Below are positions 1 to 19,361 of a stretch of DNA of 64,000 nucleotides, in pieces. The position numbers were made by a program, and so were the translations under genes. Below the pieces are notes generated by a model. That model worked only from the letters and a program-made list of their open reading frames with translations. It had not been told where the DNA came from and did not search any database. This DNA is from an uncultured Aquimarina sp. (GTDB lineage Bacteria; Bacteroidota; Bacteroidia; Flavobacteriales; Flavobacteriaceae), in the NCBI GenBank assembly GCA_947489685.1, contig CANLEM010000001.1, forward strand, positions 806,001-870,000, written 5' to 3'. The stretch's first letter is position 1, and every line of letters begins with the position of its first letter.

Positions 1-389
1 AAAAGTTCATTTCCTTCTTCTATATCTGTCAAAATAGATAATTTATCATATTCAACCAACTCTATTTTTGAATTCGATAGTGCATTCCAGTAATTAAGTT
101 TAATACGTGGACCATTAACTCCTCCTGCTTTTTCAATCACTACAAGTAAAGATAATGTTTCGTTGTTCGAGTAAAAATCAAGAGAGTCTACTAATGCCTT
201 TTGGTATGGGATTTTTTCGGTTATTTCTTTATCCGTATCCTTAAATTCCTTTACTAAAGATATATAGAAGTTGTCAATATACTTTCTGTCTTTTCTTTCT
301 TCGTTCCAATTGTCAATCCATAAAGCGATTAATACACCTAATAAAACTGGAATAATGTCCTTAACAAACGTTTTGAAATTATTTTTCAT
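1..389 (-). CDS. Hypothetical membrane-anchored protein, DUF6090-like (partial, runs off the left edge)
   Basis: Minus-strand ATG at 389; reads MKNNFKTFVKDIIPVLLGVLIALWIDNWNEERKDRKYIDNFYISLVKEFKDTDKEI..., an N-terminal TM helix followed by WIDNWNE, as in DUF6090-like proteins. Open to the window edge. Confidence 0.7.
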   Translation of the reverse strand, partial: MKNNFKTFVKDIIPVLLGVLIALWIDNWNEERKDRKYIDNFYISLVKEFKDTDKEITEKIPYQKALVDSLDFYSNNETLSLLVVIEKAGGVNGPRIKLNYWNALSNSKIELVEYDKLSILTDIEEGNEL

Positions 390-407
390 TTCTTCGTTGT
401 GTTCTGA

Positions 408-482
408 TTGTTGCTAACGTTCCGGCTAAAAAGCGTTGCTGTCCCGCAGGCAGTTATGATTTTTAGCCATTGTTGGTTGTAG
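408..482 (-). repeat. attC-like imperfect hairpin, site R1 (short type)
   Basis: + strand TTGCTAAC-GTTCC-GGCTAAAAA...CTGTCCCGCAGGCAG...TTTTTAGCC-ATT-GTTGGTTGTAG. Arms GGCTAAAAA/TTTTTAGCC are perfect; AAC/GTT triplets at the borders. Confidence 0.75.
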
Positions 483-487
483 TTTTT

Positions 488-1390
488 TTATGTTTTTAAT
501 CGTTTGTCAAACCAATCAATTACCAATTGATTTAATTCATTTTTATATTCTGTAAAATAGTGGTCGGTTTGGTAATTTTTCAATTCAAAGTCGTAATTAA
601 CTTCAGTTAATTTTTTTGCGATTATGTCTGCTTGTTTTGGATTCACTCTTTTGTCATTAGTTCCACATAAAATTAAAAGGCTACTGCTTTTGTCTAATTC
701 ATTTGTCCAATAAACTACCGAACGTTTTTTTAATTCAGATTCTTTATTATCCTGATAATTTGGCACACATTCCGCAATAACTTTGGATTCCATTTCTGGT
801 CTGTCAGAGATTAGTCCAAACAAATCGGTTGGTCCATTTCCGACAATAGCTGTTACTATCTTGTCCGATTTTTGCAGAGCAAGATAAGTCATCATTCCGC
901 CTCTTGACCAACCAAACATTCCTATACAATTTGGGTCGGCCCTATCAATTTCTTTGACAGTTTCTGTTAAATTTAGTACATCGTTTATTTCTGCTCCACC
1001 AAATTCATCTTTTTCCCGATAGTTACTACCAATTATTACGTAACCTTGTTCAGCTAATTTGGAAGCGTACATAATTAAAGTACCGACAGTTAATTGTGAA
1101 AAATCTCTATTTCCACCACGATTAAAAATTACAACAGGATATTTTCCGTTCTCTTTAGGTTCGATTACTATTCCACGAACTTTTAGGCTGTCACTTTGGT
1201 AAGTGATGAAATAAAAGTCTAATTTATTCAGATGTTTAAAGTTAGAATATAGTTGACCATCTTGTGAAATCCTATTCCAAATTGGCGTTTTTGAAATGTC
1301 TACTAATTTTTTCGATAAAATTTTTCCATTTTGGCTAAAACCAATGCTTATAAAAAGTATAAAGATTATCGATGTTAAGACTTTGTTCAT
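488..1390 (-). CDS. Secreted alpha/beta hydrolase (prolyl oligopeptidase/dienelactone hydrolase-like)
   Basis: Signal peptide, nucleophile motif GMFGWSRGG, late catalytic motif CGTNDKRVNP and TDHYF. Confidence 0.75.
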   Translation of the reverse strand: MNKVLTSIIFILFISIGFSQNGKILSKKLVDISKTPIWNRISQDGQLYSNFKHLNKLDFYFITYQSDSLKVRGIVIEPKENGKYPVVIFNRGGNRDFSQLTVGTLIMYASKLAEQGYVIIGSNYREKDEFGGAEINDVLNLTETVKEIDRADPNCIGMFGWSRGGMMTYLALQKSDKIVTAIVGNGPTDLFGLISDRPEMESKVIAECVPNYQDNKESELKKRSVVYWTNELDKSSSLLILCGTNDKRVNPKQADIIAKKLTEVNYDFELKNYQTDHYFTEYKNELNQLVIDWFDKRLKT

Positions 1391-1403
1391 TTGTTAAGTT
1401 AAA

Positions 1404-1530
1404 TTACAGCTAGCGTGTTTGTGTATGGTTAGTTGTGATGTTAAGCAACTAATTTAGTAAACTATCACGAACTGGAGAAAATTCCGAAGGCACTTTCCAA
1501 GCAATTAATTATACACGGTGTTAGCAACAG
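1404..1530 (-). repeat. attC-like imperfect hairpin, site R2 (long type)
   Basis: + strand TTACAGCTAGC-GTGTTT-GTGTATGGTTAGTTG...CAATTAATTATACAC-GGT-GTTAGCAACA; arms match 12/15. Confidence 0.65.
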
Positions 1531-1531
1531 T

Positions 1532-2965
1532 TTATTTTTCAACTATTAAGTATTCAACATACCTCAAGGCAGAAACAATCAAATTATTTCGACTTTTAGC
1601 TTGTTTTTCAAAATCATCAAGGGTTTCTCTATTTAATTTTCTTCCCTTTATAAAAACAGCCGAAGGATTTCGCAATGTAGACAAATTTAGTAAAGGATTA
1701 TCGTCTATTAATAGAAGGTTAGCAATTTTACCAACTTCAATAGTTCCCATTTCATTCATAATTGAATGAGTTTTTGAAGCATTTACTGTGGCGGTTTTCA
1801 ATATCTCATAATTAGAAAGTCCTGCTTCTTTGTAAAAAGAAAATTCTTGATGAATTGAAAATCCAGGTATTGTAACACCTATTCCAGCATCAGTACCGCA
1901 AATAAAGGTGACATCAACCTCATGAAGTTTTTCGATAATATTTATATGAAAGTCGTGCTGTTTTTTTATAGTATTAACAACAGAAGAATCATTTAATTTT
2001 GCAGTAGACCACCTTTCAAATTCTGCTTTACTATCGACCTTTTTAATTAGAGGGTTCATAAATTGTAATTGCTCTGATTCTAAAATATTATCATCAATGA
2101 GCATTTGATAAATGTTATTATAAACCGTTAAAGTTGGACTAAAAGAACTATGTTTTGATTTTGCAAAATCATTAATCACTTCTTTTAATTTTAATGTATC
2201 TAAAGTATAGTTTAAAGGTTGTTGTATAATATCCTCGGCATGTTCTATAGATTTTATTTGTGGATTAAAATGATAGGAATAAGGTACTTTTTGTGAAGGA
2301 TGAGCAACTATGTCCATATCAGAAATCTTGGCCTGTTCAATGATGGCATCAAAGATATCTTCGGTTAAGCCATAAAAAGTTTTAATAAAATCATACCCTC
2401 TTTTCTTATATGAAATCACTTTTTCTTTTGCATCACTTGGGTTTACTAATTGTAAGTTATCATCTCCTAAAAATTCTGGTCCTGTAAGTTTAGGACTTGT
2501 GGTGAAAAATATTGGAGAAATAATTTCATCATTATTTATATCTTCTTTAAGTCTTAAATGCATTGGCATTCCCCACAAGTTTCTAACTGCAGTAACACCA
2601 TTGGATAGATACAAACCAAGTTCATATTTATCCCATATGTGAACGTGCATATCTATAAGACCTGGTGTCAAATATTTATTTTTTGCATCAATAATTTTAA
2701 CATCTTTGATCTCAATATTGTCTGCGATGTTCTTAATTATACCATTTTTGATATATACCATTTTGTTGACTAAAATAGTGTCTTGATTCATTGGGACAAC
2801 ATTTACATTGGTAATCAGATAGGAATTACTTTTTGCAAATTCATTATTTTCAACTTTTAGGTAATTGGTACTTTGGTTATCAACGAATATTATAATAACC
2901 ATTGTTATTAATAAAATTCCACTAAGTATAGCAATAAATTTAAGAATTCGTTTTACTATTCTCAT
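1532..2965 (-). CDS. Amidohydrolase family protein (imidazolonepropionase-like)
   Basis: N-terminal TM helix; LTPGLIDMHVHIWD metal motif, CGTDAGIG, EVGKIANLLLIDDNPL C-terminal signature. Confidence 0.85.
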   Translation of the reverse strand: MRIVKRILKFIAILSGILLITMVIIIFVDNQSTNYLKVENNEFAKSNSYLITNVNVVPMNQDTILVNKMVYIKNGIIKNIADNIEIKDVKIIDAKNKYLTPGLIDMHVHIWDKYELGLYLSNGVTAVRNLWGMPMHLRLKEDINNDEIISPIFFTTSPKLTGPEFLGDDNLQLVNPSDAKEKVISYKKRGYDFIKTFYGLTEDIFDAIIEQAKISDMDIVAHPSQKVPYSYHFNPQIKSIEHAEDIIQQPLNYTLDTLKLKEVINDFAKSKHSSFSPTLTVYNNIYQMLIDDNILESEQLQFMNPLIKKVDSKAEFERWSTAKLNDSSVVNTIKKQHDFHINIIEKLHEVDVTFICGTDAGIGVTIPGFSIHQEFSFYKEAGLSNYEILKTATVNASKTHSIMNEMGTIEVGKIANLLLIDDNPLLNLSTLRNPSAVFIKGRKLNRETLDDFEKQAKSRNNLIVSALRYVEYLIVEK

Positions 2966-2977
2966 ATTGTATTTAAT

Positions 2978-3049
2978 TGTTGCTAACGTTTAGTATATGA
3001 ATCGTAGCATCCCGCAGGGTGCTATGATTTTATATACAGTGTTATCACC
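2978..3049 (-). repeat. attC-like imperfect hairpin, site R3 (short type)
   Basis: + strand TGTTGCTAAC-GTTTA-GTATATGAATCGTAGCATCCCGCAGGGTGCTATGATTTTATATAC-AGT-GTTATCACC; extended imperfect stem with internal TAGCATCCC/GGGTGCTA. Confidence 0.75.
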
Positions 3050-3054
3050 TTTTT

Positions 3055-6000
3055 TTATTTGTGTGCAGTTAATATAGTTAATGATTTTGCTAAATTCAAC
3101 TTGTCGGAATCATCCAATTCTATAAGATTGGCATTCGCAACATTTTCACAAAATTTCTTAGCCCAACTTGGAATGAGTGAGATAAAGCGAGTTCCAGAAT
3201 TATCAGGAAATCCGTAACCAACAAAACCCAATTCATTGAAATTTGTTATCAAATGAGACAAGCCTCTCTCTTCTAGTTGCTCGAAGTTTTTGCTATACTG
3301 ATTGATAGCTCTTTCTAATACTTTTCCTATAGGATGATTTAAGTTAATTATTACGCTAGAGATATAATTTTTCATATGAGAGCTATCATTCTGAAGCGGA
3401 AGTATCCCAAATATCTCGGCATGCTCTTCATGGAATGGACAAAAGTTGAATGAAGTGAAATAATTTTTGTTTACATCAGCTGCACCTTTCTTAAATATTT
3501 CAATTATATAGTTATCACCATTTTTTTTCGCTAGCCTTATACTAGACCTAGAAAACTTTTTAGATATCCCATATTTGATTAGACTAGATAGGGAATGCCA
3601 TTCAGATATAGTACTATCATAATGAGGAAATCCAAAATTATCTAATACAACTTGATTCTCTTCAGTAGGATTCATAGTACTTATATCATAAACTTTATTC
3701 TCGATGTGATTTTTAAAATAGGGATTCATACCGTGCATTTCATTTACTAAAAACTGAGGCACTATTTCTATTGTTTCATTGATACTATTTAACTCCTTAA
3801 GATTTATTTTTCCCGTGTTATCAACTATTGGAATAGGCCAATCATATATTGATAGAATCTCTTCTATAATTTCGTTGTTAGCTAGGTACAAATTGATCCT
3901 GGCCAATAAAATTAACCTATCAATCAAAGGGCTGTTTTCTAAAGTTAATTTGAATTTTTCTTTAATATCTTCTTTATATTGATTTCTAATAATTTCTTCG
4001 ATCAAAGATTTATCTCCTTTGAGAGAGTTTCTTGAAAGGGAAGTAATCATTGCGTTATTTTTCGAATTTTTCACGTTTAAAACAACTCTATTGGGTGGTA
4101 CATTCTTCCCACCAAGATTTATTTGATCCAACGAATTGGGAACTAAAATACCTTGTAGGTATATCCTTTTGAATTTAGTACTATTCGAGCTGTTGGATAC
4201 GTGTTTGGCTTTGATATTGGCGTTGTTTGCACCCCACCTCACTGGTATATAGTGATTTTGATTATTAAGACTAATGAGCATTGTGGCCCCTGCTTGTATG
4301 TTTTGCAATGTTCCTGCTGCTCTTCTGGTTGATCCTAAAACAGTTGGCTTAGGGAAAAAATAAGAAATTGATCCAGAGAATTGTACTCCTTCAATTTCCA
4401 CATCAATTAATTTCGTCTGTTCCTCCATAGATAAAGAAGCAGCTGCCTTATCCGAATTTATAACTATGTCGTCAAGTTTAAAAGCTAATGATTCTTTCCA
4501 AATGCTATAATCTTTATAATAATCTTGGTAAAAAGTTTCGTTTTCTGCTGTTTCGGTAGCAGATAACACCATAATCTGTTCATCTTGTTCATTGATTAGA
4601 ATGGGATAGTCTACAAACCCAAACACCTCCTTTATGTATTCAGATACTTTTAGAGACTCTGAATTTTTGAAGTCACCCTTTTTCCACTTCTCACCGATTA
4701 CATTAATTGTAATCGTTGTTCCGATATTTAAACTTTCTTGAGGAACCTTGATTACTTTAAATTGTTGATTGTAATTTTCTATTTCAATATCCAAGCTTTC
4801 GGAATTTTCATTGATAAATGGATCCGTTTTGGTTTTTATAGTTATATGATCAGCAATTTCAAAACAACTAATTAGACCGACACCAAATCGAGATATTGGA
4901 CTTACATTTAAGTTTAAATTTTCAAATTCATCACTTCTATAATAACTTTTACCAATAATGGATAGATAGTTTCTTATAATATAAAGACTCATTCCAGAAC
5001 CAGTATCCGTTACTGTTATTTTGGAATTGCCGTTTTCTTCGTGGGTGACATCAATTTTTATAAACAGTTCGCTTTTAGCAATTGAAGCACCTTTTTCTAT
5101 ATATTGAAGTTCTCGAACTTTTAATGCATCTATGCTGTTTTGAATAATTTCACGTAAAAACACATACGGGTCTCCATCATATATTTCTCCACTTATCAAC
5201 TCAAACATTTTTCCTCGATCAAATTCAAAACGAATGTCAATTGGTTCGAATCCTTCTGCATCAATATCCCACTCCAATTTTATGGTGCCCAGTGTATAGC
5301 CTGGTAATTCTTCGAGAAGTTGTTCGTTTTCTGAAATTTGTTCTGAGATCCAGTGCCTCATATCTTTTAAAGAAGCATATACTTTATGATCATCTGTTTT
5401 GCCCTGAATATTTAAGGTTAAAACGTTGTCATTTTTTCTTTCAAAATGTACTGGCTCAAGAGCAATGTGTTTTTTCCATTCATTTGCTGAGAATAAATTT
5501 CGTGGATTCACAAATTTCCATAATGAATAAGGTGTGCGATTTTTCCCAATATCAAGCAAATCGATAAATCGCATATATGTTGTTAGAGCTTGAAGATTAA
5601 TTGATTCGTCAAGTACTATTGCTTTTCTTTTAAGAGTTCTAATTTTAGAAATATCATACCAATGCCCAGCACAAACCTCACCAATAAGTTCTCCTAATCT
5701 AGAATCTGTGTCATCAAAAAAAGACTTAACTCTAGTTTTACTTCTCTCTGAATGAGTATGCCTAACGTATTCTAGCCAAACGTTTTTTAATACTTCCGAG
5801 CTATCATTTACGTGACCGTGTCGATCCGTATTTAAATGTTTTGATTTTGCATAACTTCTCCATTTAATATCTTCGTTGTCTAATAAGGCAAAATCAGTAA
5901 TTGATTTTCCTGAAGTTGTTTTTCCTGTAACAATTAGCTCTTTTTCGTCTTCACTGACAGCCATTCCCCAATCATGTCCATAAATTGCGCATGCTAAAAT

Positions 6001-6261
6001 ACAAGCCTCTACGCCACAAAGTCGATTTATAATATCATCACCTAATAAATCCTCAGAAATTCGAAACAATGACTCCATATGAAACTGATCATGCGGAGTG
6101 TATTCATCAAATAATAGATTTGTCTGTGTTAGTTGGGGGAGAACATATTCTGCAAACCTTTCAAGTTTAGCATACAAGTTATGTTTAGCATTCTCTTTTT
6201 GAGGTTTTGATTCATCATATACCTTTTTAATCAGTTTGGATTTGGCAATTTCTATTAGCAT
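3055..6261 (-). CDS. Large protein with N-terminal HD-like phosphohydrolase region and Hsp90/GHKL-type ATPase domain
   Basis: HD-like motifs TPHDQFHMESLF, IYGHDWGM, GHWYDI, YMRFIDLLDI; GHKL/Hsp90 motifs FLREIIQNSIDALKVRE (N box), ITVTDTGSGMS, SRFGVGLISCFEIAD. Confidence 0.75.
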   Translation of the reverse strand: MLIEIAKSKLIKKVYDESKPQKENAKHNLYAKLERFAEYVLPQLTQTNLLFDEYTPHDQFHMESLFRISEDLLGDDIINRLCGVEACILACAIYGHDWGMAVSEDEKELIVTGKTTSGKSITDFALLDNEDIKWRSYAKSKHLNTDRHGHVNDSSEVLKNVWLEYVRHTHSERSKTRVKSFFDDTDSRLGELIGEVCAGHWYDISKIRTLKRKAIVLDESINLQALTTYMRFIDLLDIGKNRTPYSLWKFVNPRNLFSANEWKKHIALEPVHFERKNDNVLTLNIQGKTDDHKVYASLKDMRHWISEQISENEQLLEELPGYTLGTIKLEWDIDAEGFEPIDIRFEFDRGKMFELISGEIYDGDPYVFLREIIQNSIDALKVRELQYIEKGASIAKSELFIKIDVTHEENGNSKITVTDTGSGMSLYIIRNYLSIIGKSYYRSDEFENLNLNVSPISRFGVGLISCFEIADHITIKTKTDPFINENSESLDIEIENYNQQFKVIKVPQESLNIGTTITINVIGEKWKKGDFKNSESLKVSEYIKEVFGFVDYPILINEQDEQIMVLSATETAENETFYQDYYKDYSIWKESLAFKLDDIVINSDKAAASLSMEEQTKLIDVEIEGVQFSGSISYFFPKPTVLGSTRRAAGTLQNIQAGATMLISLNNQNHYIPVRWGANNANIKAKHVSNSSNSTKFKRIYLQGILVPNSLDQINLGGKNVPPNRVVLNVKNSKNNAMITSLSRNSLKGDKSLIEEIIRNQYKEDIKEKFKLTLENSPLIDRLILLARINLYLANNEIIEEILSIYDWPIPIVDNTGKINLKELNSINETIEIVPQFLVNEMHGMNPYFKNHIENKVYDISTMNPTEENQVVLDNFGFPHYDSTISEWHSLSSLIKYGISKKFSRSSIRLAKKNGDNYIIEIFKKGAADVNKNYFTSFNFCPFHEEHAEIFGILPLQNDSSHMKNYISSVIINLNHPIGKVLERAINQYSKNFEQLEERGLSHLITNFNELGFVGYGFPDNSGTRFISLIPSWAKKFCENVANANLIELDDSDKLNLAKSLTILTAHK

Positions 6262-6286
6262 TTATAATTTGTAATTATTTTCAATT

Positions 6287-6422
6287 GGTGATAACGGTCT
6301 CGGCTATGAGTAGTTGCGTGGTTTATCACTTAACTTTGCAAGTACACACCAAGTTGGAAATTCCTGTGGAATTTCCAAAGTAGGCGAGAACGAGCAATTA
6401 CTTATAGCCATTGTTGTAACTT
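6287..6422 (-). repeat. attC-like imperfect hairpin, site R4 (long type)
   Basis: + strand GGTGATAAC-GGTCTC-GGCTATGAGTAGTTGC...TTGGAAATTCCTGTGGAATTTCCAA...GCAATTACTTATAGCC-ATT-GTTGTAACTT; outer arms 14/16, inner hairpin perfect. Confidence 0.75.
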
Positions 6423-6427
6423 GTTTT

Positions 6428-6793
6428 TCAATCATTAATTTTTTTAGCAATCAGATATAAATTACTGGAAGTCGAATGAAAAAATAAGGTGTCATTACTC
6501 GTAGATAAAATCCATTGACTATCTCCTTCATTTCCTTCGCCATCTATGAGTATTGTTTTTTCTTCCAACTTATAAGTCCATTTACCACTTTCGCCTTTTT
6601 TTAAAGTTCCGTCATAACTGTCAAATGTCCCATTACTCTTTAAATGCATCCAATTCTCAATTAGATCAGTAGATTTATCATTTTCAACAATATTCAATAT
6701 TTGCCATTTTCCAATAAAATATTCAGGGGATTTTTTGCAGGCAGAAAATCCAATAAATATCAATAGTATTAAATTTCTAATTCTCTGTTTCAT
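6428..6793 (-). CDS. Small lipoprotein, lipocalin-like
   Basis: Signal peptide with lipobox-like FSAC; GKWQILNI...GKWTYKLEEKTILI pattern as in lipocalin-like Bacteroidota lipoproteins. Confidence 0.6.
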   Translation of the reverse strand: MKQRIRNLILLIFIGFSACKKSPEYFIGKWQILNIVENDKSTDLIENWMHLKSNGTFDSYDGTLKKGESGKWTYKLEEKTILIDGEGNEGDSQWILSTSNDTLFFHSTSSNLYLIAKKIND

Positions 6794-6800
6794 TTAAAAT

Positions 6801-6840
6801 AAGTTACAACAATTCAGTATATGTAAAAGTACATATATTA
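6801..6840 (-). repeat. Terminal cassette end (R5): core AAGTTACAAC followed by a short hairpin
   Basis: AAGTTACAAC is the exact reverse complement of GTTGTAACTT at 6413-6422; followed by ATATGTA-AAAG-TACATAT. No GTT border found on the right side. Confidence 0.5.
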
Positions 6841-6907
6841 CCAATTGTACGTATTTGTAATTAATTAAAATTGTTTAGGGGTATATAAAGCTACAAATTA
6901 AAAAACT

Positions 6908-6933
6908 AAACACCACTTGATAAAAGTGGTGTT
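6908..6933 (-). terminator. Hairpin downstream of the vWA gene
   Basis: AAACACCACTT-GATAA-AAGTGGTGTTT. Confidence 0.6.
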
Positions 6934-6963
6934 TACATAAAAACATATATCCAAAATAAATAA

Positions 6964-8136
6964 TTATTGATCCCAGCTAAAGGATTTTTTACCCCCTTGT
7001 TTTTTAATGGCATTTAATAAAGCCGTTTCGAGACTGGTCTCATCCTTTTTGCTATTACTTTTAATAAATGCAGTCCTTTTTTTGTTTAATTCTTGTATTT
7101 TTTGCTGTATTTCTTTGCGTTGAGCACTTTTTTTGGCAATGTGCTGTTTTAATTCGCTAGTAGATTTACCTTTAAGTTCTTGCGGTAGTTGATCATCTGC
7201 AATTTCTTCTAATTCAAATTCTTTGTCCTCTGCTGCATCGATCAGATCCCAGCTTTTGTTCTTATAAAAACCAGAACTCTTACTCACAGTTCTGCTTACA
7301 GCATTTGCGGCACTATAGGATTTTGCATTACTATCTTGCTCCCGTTGCAAACTTCTTTTTTGAGCTCCGTGACTACCGTAATAGATATAGGTGTCATTTA
7401 ATTGATGATTGAGCTTTAAAATAATATCATCATAGGGTGTAGCAATATGTACAGTTTGGCGATTATGGTCTATAGCACTGTACTCTCCATGAGTGATATC
7501 GGCTCCATTTTTCCACATTGTATCTATTCCTTGTCTATAATTACCGCAAAAAATAGTATTTACGGTGATATCTTTTTCCAAAGCATCTGTAGCAGCATCT
7601 TTATAATCGGTTGGGCCTTGCGTAAAAGGTTCATTTCCGGCTATAAAAATTAACTTAAGGTGGTCGTTGTTTTTTTTCCAATCTAATTGATTAATAGAGG
7701 TGGTAATTACCTTACCACAATACTCATTACCTCCATTTGTGGTTAGCGCAAAAAGCTCCTTAGAGATTTCGTCCAAATCCTCAGAGAATGGTAATACTTG
7801 GCGTATATACCCTTCTTTGGATGACAAACGATCATTACCATATTCATAAAGTGCTATCTGAAGCTTTATGGTATTATGACCACATTTGGCATAAGACAAC
7901 TCATTTACAATTTCCCATAATTGTGCTTTGGCCTGGTCTATTAGCCCATCCATACTGTTACTGGTGTCTAATAATAAAGCTACTTGTATATTGCTGGTAT
8001 TTGGGTCTGTTTTGGTGGTTTGGATCTTATGTGATCCCTCATTCTGAAATGATAAATCCTTATTTGGTTTATGATTTGCATTGCAAGAAATATGAATCAA
8101 TAGGCTTAATGCGCTCCATATAAAAAAAGTTTTCAT
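6964..8136 (-). CDS. vWA-domain protein (secreted/lipoprotein)
   Basis: Likely start is internal MKTFFIWSALSLLIHISCNA; MIDAS-like VALLLDTSNSMDGLIDQAK. The ORF track extends further upstream without a clear signal. Confidence 0.75.
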   Translation of the reverse strand: MKTFFIWSALSLLIHISCNANHKPNKDLSFQNEGSHKIQTTKTDPNTSNIQVALLLDTSNSMDGLIDQAKAQLWEIVNELSYAKCGHNTIKLQIALYEYGNDRLSSKEGYIRQVLPFSEDLDEISKELFALTTNGGNEYCGKVITTSINQLDWKKNNDHLKLIFIAGNEPFTQGPTDYKDAATDALEKDITVNTIFCGNYRQGIDTMWKNGADITHGEYSAIDHNRQTVHIATPYDDIILKLNHQLNDTYIYYGSHGAQKRSLQREQDSNAKSYSAANAVSRTVSKSSGFYKNKSWDLIDAAEDKEFELEEIADDQLPQELKGKSTSELKQHIAKKSAQRKEIQQKIQELNKKRTAFIKSNSKKDETSLETALLNAIKKQGGKKSFSWDQ

Positions 8137-17782: not shown

Positions 17783-18667
17783 TTAATTGCGTTTATCTTC
17801 TCCCCAAAGCATCTTTTTACGTAATGTTTGTAGGAAACTCTCGTCCTGCAAAATAACCATATTTATCTTGAAAGGAGCCTTTTTAATAATTACTGTAGTC
17901 TCATTGGGTAATGTATGGATTCTCGAATCCAAAGAAACCAGATATGTGTCTTCTCGTCCAGACACTTGTAACTTTATTTCCTGATTATCGGGTATTACCA
18001 GTGGTCTTGCATTAAGGTTGTGTGGTGCAATAGGTGTAAGCATCATACTTTCGGCATCTGGCATCATTACAGGCCCACCGCAACTTAAAGAATAACCTGT
18101 GGACCCTGTTGGGGTCGAGACAATTAGGCCGTCTGCCCAATACGAGGTTAAAAATTCATTATTAAGGCTGGTATGTACGGTAATCATAGAGGTAGTATTT
18201 CTTCTGCTAACTGCGATCTCATTCATAGCAAAATTTAATACGCCAAATTCTTCGGTTGCAGGTAAAGTTTCTACAGTTACCAAACTTCTTGAAGAGATAT
18301 AGAACTTTTTGTTAAGGATTAAAGAAATACTCTCTTTTATTTCTTCTTTTTGAATGGTTGCCAAAAAACCAAGTCTTCCGGTATTTATTCCGGCAATTGG
18401 AATACCCAAATCTCTAACATAGGTTATAGTCTTTAAAATAGTACCATCGCCACCAATACTAAAAAAGAGATCGTATGAAGTATCTAGTTCTTCAAATGTG
18501 CTGAAATGAGAATATGATTTATCGATTTCATCATGAAGATTTATGAGTTCAAGAAAATTCTTTTCAATAACTACCTCTACACCATTTTCGTCAAGAGTTT
18601 CTAATAGTTGTTGGATATATATTCCAGAATTCTTGTGATAGAACTGTCCATAAATACCGATTTTCAT
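17783..18667 (-). CDS. nadK: NAD kinase
   Basis: FSIGGDGTILKTI, GINTGRLGFLA, STPTGSTGYSLSCGGP. Confidence 0.95.
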   Translation of the reverse strand: MKIGIYGQFYHKNSGIYIQQLLETLDENGVEVVIEKNFLELINLHDEIDKSYSHFSTFEELDTSYDLFFSIGGDGTILKTITYVRDLGIPIAGINTGRLGFLATIQKEEIKESISLILNKKFYISSRSLVTVETLPATEEFGVLNFAMNEIAVSRRNTTSMITVHTSLNNEFLTSYWADGLIVSTPTGSTGYSLSCGGPVMMPDAESMMLTPIAPHNLNARPLVIPDNQEIKLQVSGREDTYLVSLDSRIHTLPNETTVIIKKAPFKINMVILQDESFLQTLRKKMLWGEDKRN

Positions 18668-18704
18668 TAGGATGTGATTTGTGTTAGTTGGTTAGGTAAA
18701 AATG

Positions 18705-19361
18705 TCAAATATTCAAATATTTTTCAAGATACTGGGATCTTTCTTTTAGATTCGTTAAAAACGAATCTTCGTAATGTTTAGAAACAATGTTATAACTATA
18801 TCTTCTAAACGTTTGTACTATATTATTAATGTCGCTATCATTAATTTTGATGGTGATTTGCGCAACATCATTTTCCATATTAGAAATAAATAGGCCTAGA
18901 ACTTTGGCATTATTAGATTCTATAATTTGCGAAATTTCACTAAACGAATAATCCAATATTCCTTTTTCTACAATTAAAATATTTCCTGGTTCACTAAGAA
19001 AAGGAGTTTCATTAAAAAGATTCATAATGTCTCCTAATTCAAAAAAACCTAAATACCTATTATTGTCATCAAGAACAGGCATTATATTAGAATTATTTTG
19101 CGCAAATGCTTCCAAAATATCAAGCCAATTATGATCTTTTCTAACATAAAAACCTTCTAGCGCATATTGATATGCACTTAGAGTTTTGTCTGTTTCAAAA
19201 CATCTAATATCTGCTTCAGAAATACACCCCATATATGTTTTGTCTTTAATAACAGGGAAATGAGTATATGTGAGTTCATTAAATAATAGCTGTGCATCCG
19301 TAACGTTTACAGCGATATCTAATGGTGCTATTTCATTAACTACGTACAAATTTGTCTTCAT
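18705..19361 (-). CDS. CBS-domain protein
   Basis: Paired CBS-like segments (AQLLFNELTYTHFPVIKDKTYMGCISEADI; NNSNIMPVLDDNNRYLGFFELGDIM). Start at MKTNLYVV preferred. Confidence 0.85.
   Translation of the reverse strand: MKTNLYVVNEIAPLDIAVNVTDAQLLFNELTYTHFPVIKDKTYMGCISEADIRCFETDKTLSAYQYALEGFYVRKDHNWLDILEAFAQNNSNIMPVLDDNNRYLGFFELGDIMNLFNETPFLSEPGNILIVEKGILDYSFSEISQIIESNNAKVLGLFISNMENDVAQITIKINDSDINNIVQTFRRYSYNIVSKHYEDSFLTNLKERSQYLEKYLNI

Follow-up and report, generated by a model that had tools for sequence, protein, structure and literature searches.

The window analysed here, a stretch of 64,000 nucleotides from an uncultured Aquimarina species (positions 806001-870000 of contig C1), opens with a run of minus-strand genes separated by hairpins, raising the question of whether these genes are mobile cassettes and, if they are, what kind of recombinase moves them. 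Judging from the sequences, we consider it very probable that the array belongs to a cassette-capture platform working like an integron, with a tyrosine recombinase, hairpin attC-like sites and an attI-like site, and a G/TT cut.

The proximal part of the array occupies positions 1-6811 of the window. From there it extends leftward past the window edge as far as about C1:798,600, and its total length is therefore about 14 kb, with the ORFs on the minus strand. Its unit is a cassette, a gene plus a hairpin site, and the minus-strand ORFs and the four hairpins (R1-R4) listed in a preliminary description are all present. Cassette 1 (6295-6809, minus strand, as are all features of the array) encodes a lipocalin-like lipoprotein of 121 aa (ORF 6428-6793), a weak match to PF13648 slightly under the cut-off, and has hairpin R4 (6293-6415; 49.7 bits with the covariance model described below), its R' and R'' boxes agreeing at 10/10 positions. 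Cassette 2 (2987-6294) consists of a 1068-aa HD-CE and HATPase protein assigned by Pfam (ORF 3055-6261) and hairpin R3 (2985-3043; 62.6 bits). In cassette 3 (1414-2986), an amidohydrolase of 477 aa, also assigned by Pfam (ORF 1532-2965), is combined with hairpin R2 (1412-1522; 48.5 bits), in which the core is degraded from GTT to GCT; R' and R'' again agree at 10/10. The 300-aa alpha/beta hydrolase of cassette 4 (418-1413; ORF 488-1390; PF00326) precedes hairpin R1 (416-474; 54.1 bits), and the boxes have diverged, with an R'/R'' match of 7/11. The ORF list and the leftward array place the start of cassette 5 at 1-417, with an ORF (3-389) that continues out of the window to the left. Leftward of cassette 4, the array encodes HAD, leucine-rich repeat, DUF6058, AraC-type and GDSL proteins, and the cassette products are mutually unrelated. 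PADLOC returned no defence matches for nine cassette proteins, and an Rfam search of window positions 1-7000 gave no match up to E = 1.

Scanning for exact stems by regular expression and chaining boxes produced an excess of chance matches and was unusable alone; a covariance model built from 19 hairpins of this genome was used in its place (this model is also named R1, and is distinct from hairpin R1). Such a search had been proposed in the preliminary description, and it recovered sites in the arrays of Bacteroidota relatives. Read in gene orientation, a site has the layout AAC-N3-stem...stem-N5-GTT, with lengths of 45-187 bp among 20 sites taken by hand. The AAC and GTT are conserved and the right box reads GTTR-N5-M-A-T, which does not match the RYYYAAC/GTTRRRY consensus; the earlier caution that the cores do not fit that consensus beyond AAC/GTT was right. 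Some cores are mutated (GCT), and some cassettes, such as cassette 4, have diverged boxes.

When the 19 hairpins are read on the bottom strand, 93% of the pairs are standard and 12 pairs are doubly changed, and covariation is 0.509; shuffling lowers it to 0.163, and no slid register exceeds 0.124. A single G.T wobble is found on the bottom strand of all 19 sites, its gene-strand equivalent being an A.C mismatch. The same pair is present in all 116 distinct rows from GTDB loci, a count that leans because the covariance model was trained on that pair; more generally, the site statistics rest on sites from a model trained on this genome, and the alignment leans to structure. A second conserved C/A (G.T on the bottom strand), 10 bases outward from the core, occurs in 88 of 114 sites. 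Although one-base asymmetries are present in some sites, the constant feature is the G.T wobbles. Of the 116 scored sites, 114 fold more stably on the bottom strand (p = 1.6e-31), a bias not seen in random control windows, and 97.5% of cells are paired on that strand; as in attC sites, the bottom strand forms a hairpin in which the R and L boxes pair. The substrate form of attC is the folded bottom strand (PMC3053210), and the strand bias and wobbles favour a folded bottom strand as the substrate here as well. It is also possible that the conserved G.T wobbles act as a strand label.

The preliminary description further held that the ends of a cassette pair with each other, R' with R'', and not over a hairpin. 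The four complementary end pairs that it reported were all found, and the rule is borne out by counts over related arrays: at least six of seven outer bases match in 38 of 79 consecutive site pairs within a cassette, compared with 5 of 102 over a hairpin and about 3% at random. The first of these is a lower bound, as missed sites leave some pairs non-adjacent. Complementarity of R' and R'' within the cassette is a feature shared with integrons; to our knowledge, assembly of R'/R'' over a cassette is an integron signature, absent from IS605 and pdif modules.

On its right side the array adjoins a palindrome and a core, ...TATATGTACTTTTACATATACTGAATTG/TT (window 6811-6845 and 6808-6810, minus strand). 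This attI-like site (6811-6845, minus strand) comprises the palindrome TATATGTACTTTTACATATA (6817-6837) and then TGAATTG/TT, placing the predicted crossover at 6810/6809. The palindrome pattern has only two zero-mismatch matches in 4.7 Mb, the window site and a site on C3, another contig of the same genome. The C3 copy lies directly 3' of the stop codon of a gene encoding a 375-aa tyrosine recombinase (C3:813748-814875), and a second array with the same hairpins comes next. Only about 35 bp of sequence is common to the two main attI copies, and two weaker attI-like places, at C3:156.6k and C3:7.7k, are likewise at the head of cassettes. As in an integron, the attI-like site adjoins the integrase gene and heads the array, though it is on the 3' side of the gene, and the arrangement is therefore unlike that of the usual integron. 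The window array has no adjacent integrase: there are no tyrosine recombinases in the window and seven elsewhere in the genome, in agreement with the earlier report of no integrase in view. The check proposed earlier, for a tyrosine recombinase near the sites, was positive on C3, where one stands directly before an attI and array, but not in the window. A site-specific recombinase had been proposed all the same, and that proposal is supported by the presence in trans of a tyrosine recombinase whose attI-like site matches; the attI-like element at the right end of the array, the trans integrase and the bottom-strand signature had been missed. Solo hairpin sites also occur in this genome (G000) away from the main arrays, at C3:703570, C1:765227 and C3:170571, and are possibly off-target insertions or remnants.

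That these are mobile cassettes joined at G/TT, as originally proposed, is supported by homologous cassettes of different arrays, which are bounded at or near G/TT. Cassette 2 occurs again at C3:153-156.6k, with 79% identity over 3,328 bp; the homology starts no more than two bases from the predicted crossover (window 6293) and stops 13 bases past the next GTT, and the copy on C3 is behind an attI-like element, whereas that in the window is behind hairpin R4. Similarly, the first cassette of a further Aquimarina array (L117) is matched at 85.6% by the cassette at C3:819557-819965, with G/TT at both ends, and two arrays within one genome have 1,674 bp in common at 99.8%, ending at attC cores. 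In comparisons of 15 pairs of closely related loci, sequence identity stays at about 0.95 as far as the attI crossover and has dropped to about 0.3 at 20 bases past it. Whether genes vary beside a conserved flank had been named as a further test of mobility: the right-hand neighbour of the window array is a gene found in 44 of 55 genomes of the genus, and all 20 genus relatives compared at this right-flank locus (20/20) have neither a site nor any of the array genes there. The next conserved gene in G000 is about 72 kb away, and the array therefore lies at one end of an inserted region, with about 72 kb inserted relative to the genus relatives (C1:740.8-812.9k, which takes in DNA left of the window and window positions 1-6850). 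This insertion also carries a run of large plus-strand genes (L016:6287-11719).

The C3 recombinase passes the XerA-like model NF040815, scoring 230 bits against a cut-off of 220, while two relatives are marginal (224.5 for the Persicobacter homolog and 219.3 for L146). The catalytic residues are intact in 26 proteins, with R235, R327 and Y359 invariant and H324 and H350 conserved in at least 90%. An N-terminal extension of about 100 residues is predicted to fold as beta-beta-alpha-beta-beta-alpha-beta, and a structure search with it gave nothing below E 0.08. Pfam HARP matched the N-terminal domains of two distant members (L105 and L097) weakly, at E 0.015-0.041, and with these values under the cut-off, only two distant members matching and no confident structural relative, we did not assign a HARP identity to the domain. 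The weak HARP-like similarity of L105 and L097 is a lead on possible recognition of branched DNA by the extension. In one relative (L094, in the second array of G330, 17878-18966), a short segment before the catalytic His/Arg box is missing that is present in the near-identical sister L093, and because of this gap the L094 copy may be inactive.

Relatives of the recombinase were found in 35 of 398 genomes of the order at E <= 1e-70. Sites were found in 54 genomes of the order; 18 genomes have both recombinase and site at the strict setting, and 36 have sites without the recombinase. This mismatch is partly a matter of the strict filter and of long sites, yet solo sites do exist. A scan of species-level GTDB genomes gave at least 509 recombinase relatives. 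The best 80 of these are nearly all from Flavobacteriia, with Aquimarina, Maribacter, Arenibacter, Winogradskyella and Gillisia among the genera, and in their loci the R1 covariance model found 117 sites, all of them (117/117) oriented the same way with respect to the recombinase; only two are not downstream of it. A palindrome with arms of at least 8 is found 3' of the recombinase stop codon in 80% of the best 80 loci (control windows, 5.8%); the crossover motif occurs in 68 of 79 loci (control windows, 3.9%). The attI-like palindromes differ by species, and same-orientation hairpin arrays come after them. More distant relatives with sites are found outside the class and also on a Persicobacter plasmid. 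Most loci have one palindrome before the crossover; ten (L137, L141, L144, L149, L150, L152, L156, L159, L160 and L184) have two in tandem, and tandem-palindrome loci include Winogradskyella, Psychroserpens, Gelidibacter and Maribacter.

Could this simply be an ordinary IntI integron or CALIN with a diverged integrase, in which case the mechanism is not new? The logic of the array is identical to that of integrons, and the predicted fold of L146 (mean pLDDT 85), a relative standing in for this genome's recombinase, is closest to IntI4 (2a3v; E 1e-16) and then to XerA. Integrons, however, take their definition from an integrase domain regarded as necessary for single-strand recombination. In the relevant passage of Roy, Partridge and Hall (PMC7784347), citing Messier and Roy 2001, an additional domain of about 30 residues separates IntI from other recombinases. 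In our alignment, 18 residues of the recombinase lie between conserved boxes that are 61 residues apart in IntI4, with the same gap relative to IntI1 and IntI2, and the additional domain, about 43 residues of IntI4, is missing from every aligned family member. On the integron model TIGR02249 the C3 recombinase scores 196 bits and the family 175-204, below the cut-off of 265, whereas IntI1 and IntI2 from plasmids reach 506 and 411. The same model detected nothing at E <= 1e-60 in the 398 genomes of the order, the control genomes being equally silent and the plasmid IntI proteins serving as the positive control. A small tree separates the family from IntI, but as it contains three IntI rows, has long branches and gives support of 84/89, this placement is suggestive only. 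Together with boxes unlike GTTRRRY and an attI after the integrase stop codon, these results make a merely diverged IntI system unlikely in our estimation, and the non-canonical boxes and an enzyme that is not IntI support the earlier suggestion of a diverged or separate system.

We give less credence still to two explanations that dispense with an integron-like process. The genome has other Xer-like genes, the linked recombinase is in an XerA-like family, and IS200/IS605 elements also use bottom-strand hairpins, so that a Y1 transposase of the IS200/IS605 type, or the housekeeping XerC/XerD moving the cassettes as pdif-type modules, might be invoked, leaving the linked recombinase to dimer resolution only. 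Such a division of labour seems very unlikely to us, since arrays in dozens of genomes are directly preceded by a dedicated recombinase and its matching attI-like palindrome, identity between loci drops at the crossover of that very site, and the R'/R'' assembly is, as far as we know, typical of neither IS605 nor pdif. The pdif sites known to us are short, double-stranded XerC/D sites flanking modules, with no attI, no long hairpin and no R'/R'' rule. Scarcely credible, finally, is that the hairpins serve as transcription terminators or RNA elements in an accessory island reshuffled by homologous recombination. Hairpins do lie between co-directional genes, in an array inside an insertion of about 72 kb, but the G.T pairs of the bottom strand become A.C mismatches in transcript sense, the stability bias (114/116) is towards the bottom strand, the box complementarity within cassettes and the G/TT ends are left unexplained, and Rfam provided no match.

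Compared with known systems, the array resembles sedentary chromosomal integrons and CALIN in its co-directional unrelated genes, R'/R'' complementarity, AAC/GTT cores, bottom-strand hairpins, attI at the head of the array and tyrosine recombinase. It differs from chromosomal integrons in a recombinase that lacks the IntI additional domain, has the N-terminal extension of about 100 residues and is co-directional with the cassettes, in an attI that is a short palindrome plus crossover past the recombinase stop codon, and in GTTR-N5-M-A-T boxes with conserved bottom-strand G.T wobbles. XerH and XerS have a palindromic site near the recombinase gene. The single-recombinase Xer/dif systems (XerA, XerH-difH, XerS-difSL) resemble the present one in this and in the XerA-like model match, but here there are linked cassette arrays and hairpin sites, a patchy accessory distribution, and other Xer-like genes in the genome. 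The Vibrio cholerae VCR integron has long attC-like sites (120-190 bp) common to many cassettes and a folded bottom strand (PMC3053210), whereas here there is no IntI patch and site length varies widely (45-187 bp). Acinetobacter plasmid pdif modules are alike in being gene modules bounded by tyrosine-recombinase sites (PMC7399989).

The cassette anatomy, the common attI, the bottom-strand signature, the boundaries at or near G/TT and the linkage of integrase, attI and array over many genomes can be read directly from the sequences. From these we infer catalysis by the C3 recombinase, use of single-stranded DNA, and action in trans. On the mechanism that we consider most likely, cassettes would be excised as circles by the tyrosine recombinase, which would recognise the folded bottom strand of each attC-like hairpin and the double-stranded attI-like site; the cut would fall between G and TT, and new cassettes would enter beside attI. 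The C3 recombinase has its own attI and array, and the window array, with an attI copy and no integrase, would be a second platform, probably served in trans by the C3 recombinase because the attI copies match.

We do not file the system as an IntI integron because the IntI domain is missing and the box consensus does not fit, though most structural features of an integron are present. We favour reading it as an integron variant that has gone unrecognised and is possibly independent. We put at about even chances the stronger proposal of a second, independently evolved integron, in which a Bacteroidota XerA-like recombinase, having no IntI additional domain, gained the capacity to recombine folded single-stranded hairpins with a palindromic attI, the strand being chosen possibly via the N-terminal extension and the G.T wobbles. 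No description of the system was found in the open-access literature searched, and it is likely, though not certain, that the system is new to the literature. The IntegronFinder 2.0 survey recorded a single complete integron in Bacteroidetes proper, in Salinibacter (PMC9024848). If our reading is correct, a large reservoir of mobile genes carried by marine bacteria, with at least 509 relatives of the recombinase in one scan, would have been overlooked by current detection, and it would become testable how single-strand recombination arose from Xer enzymes.
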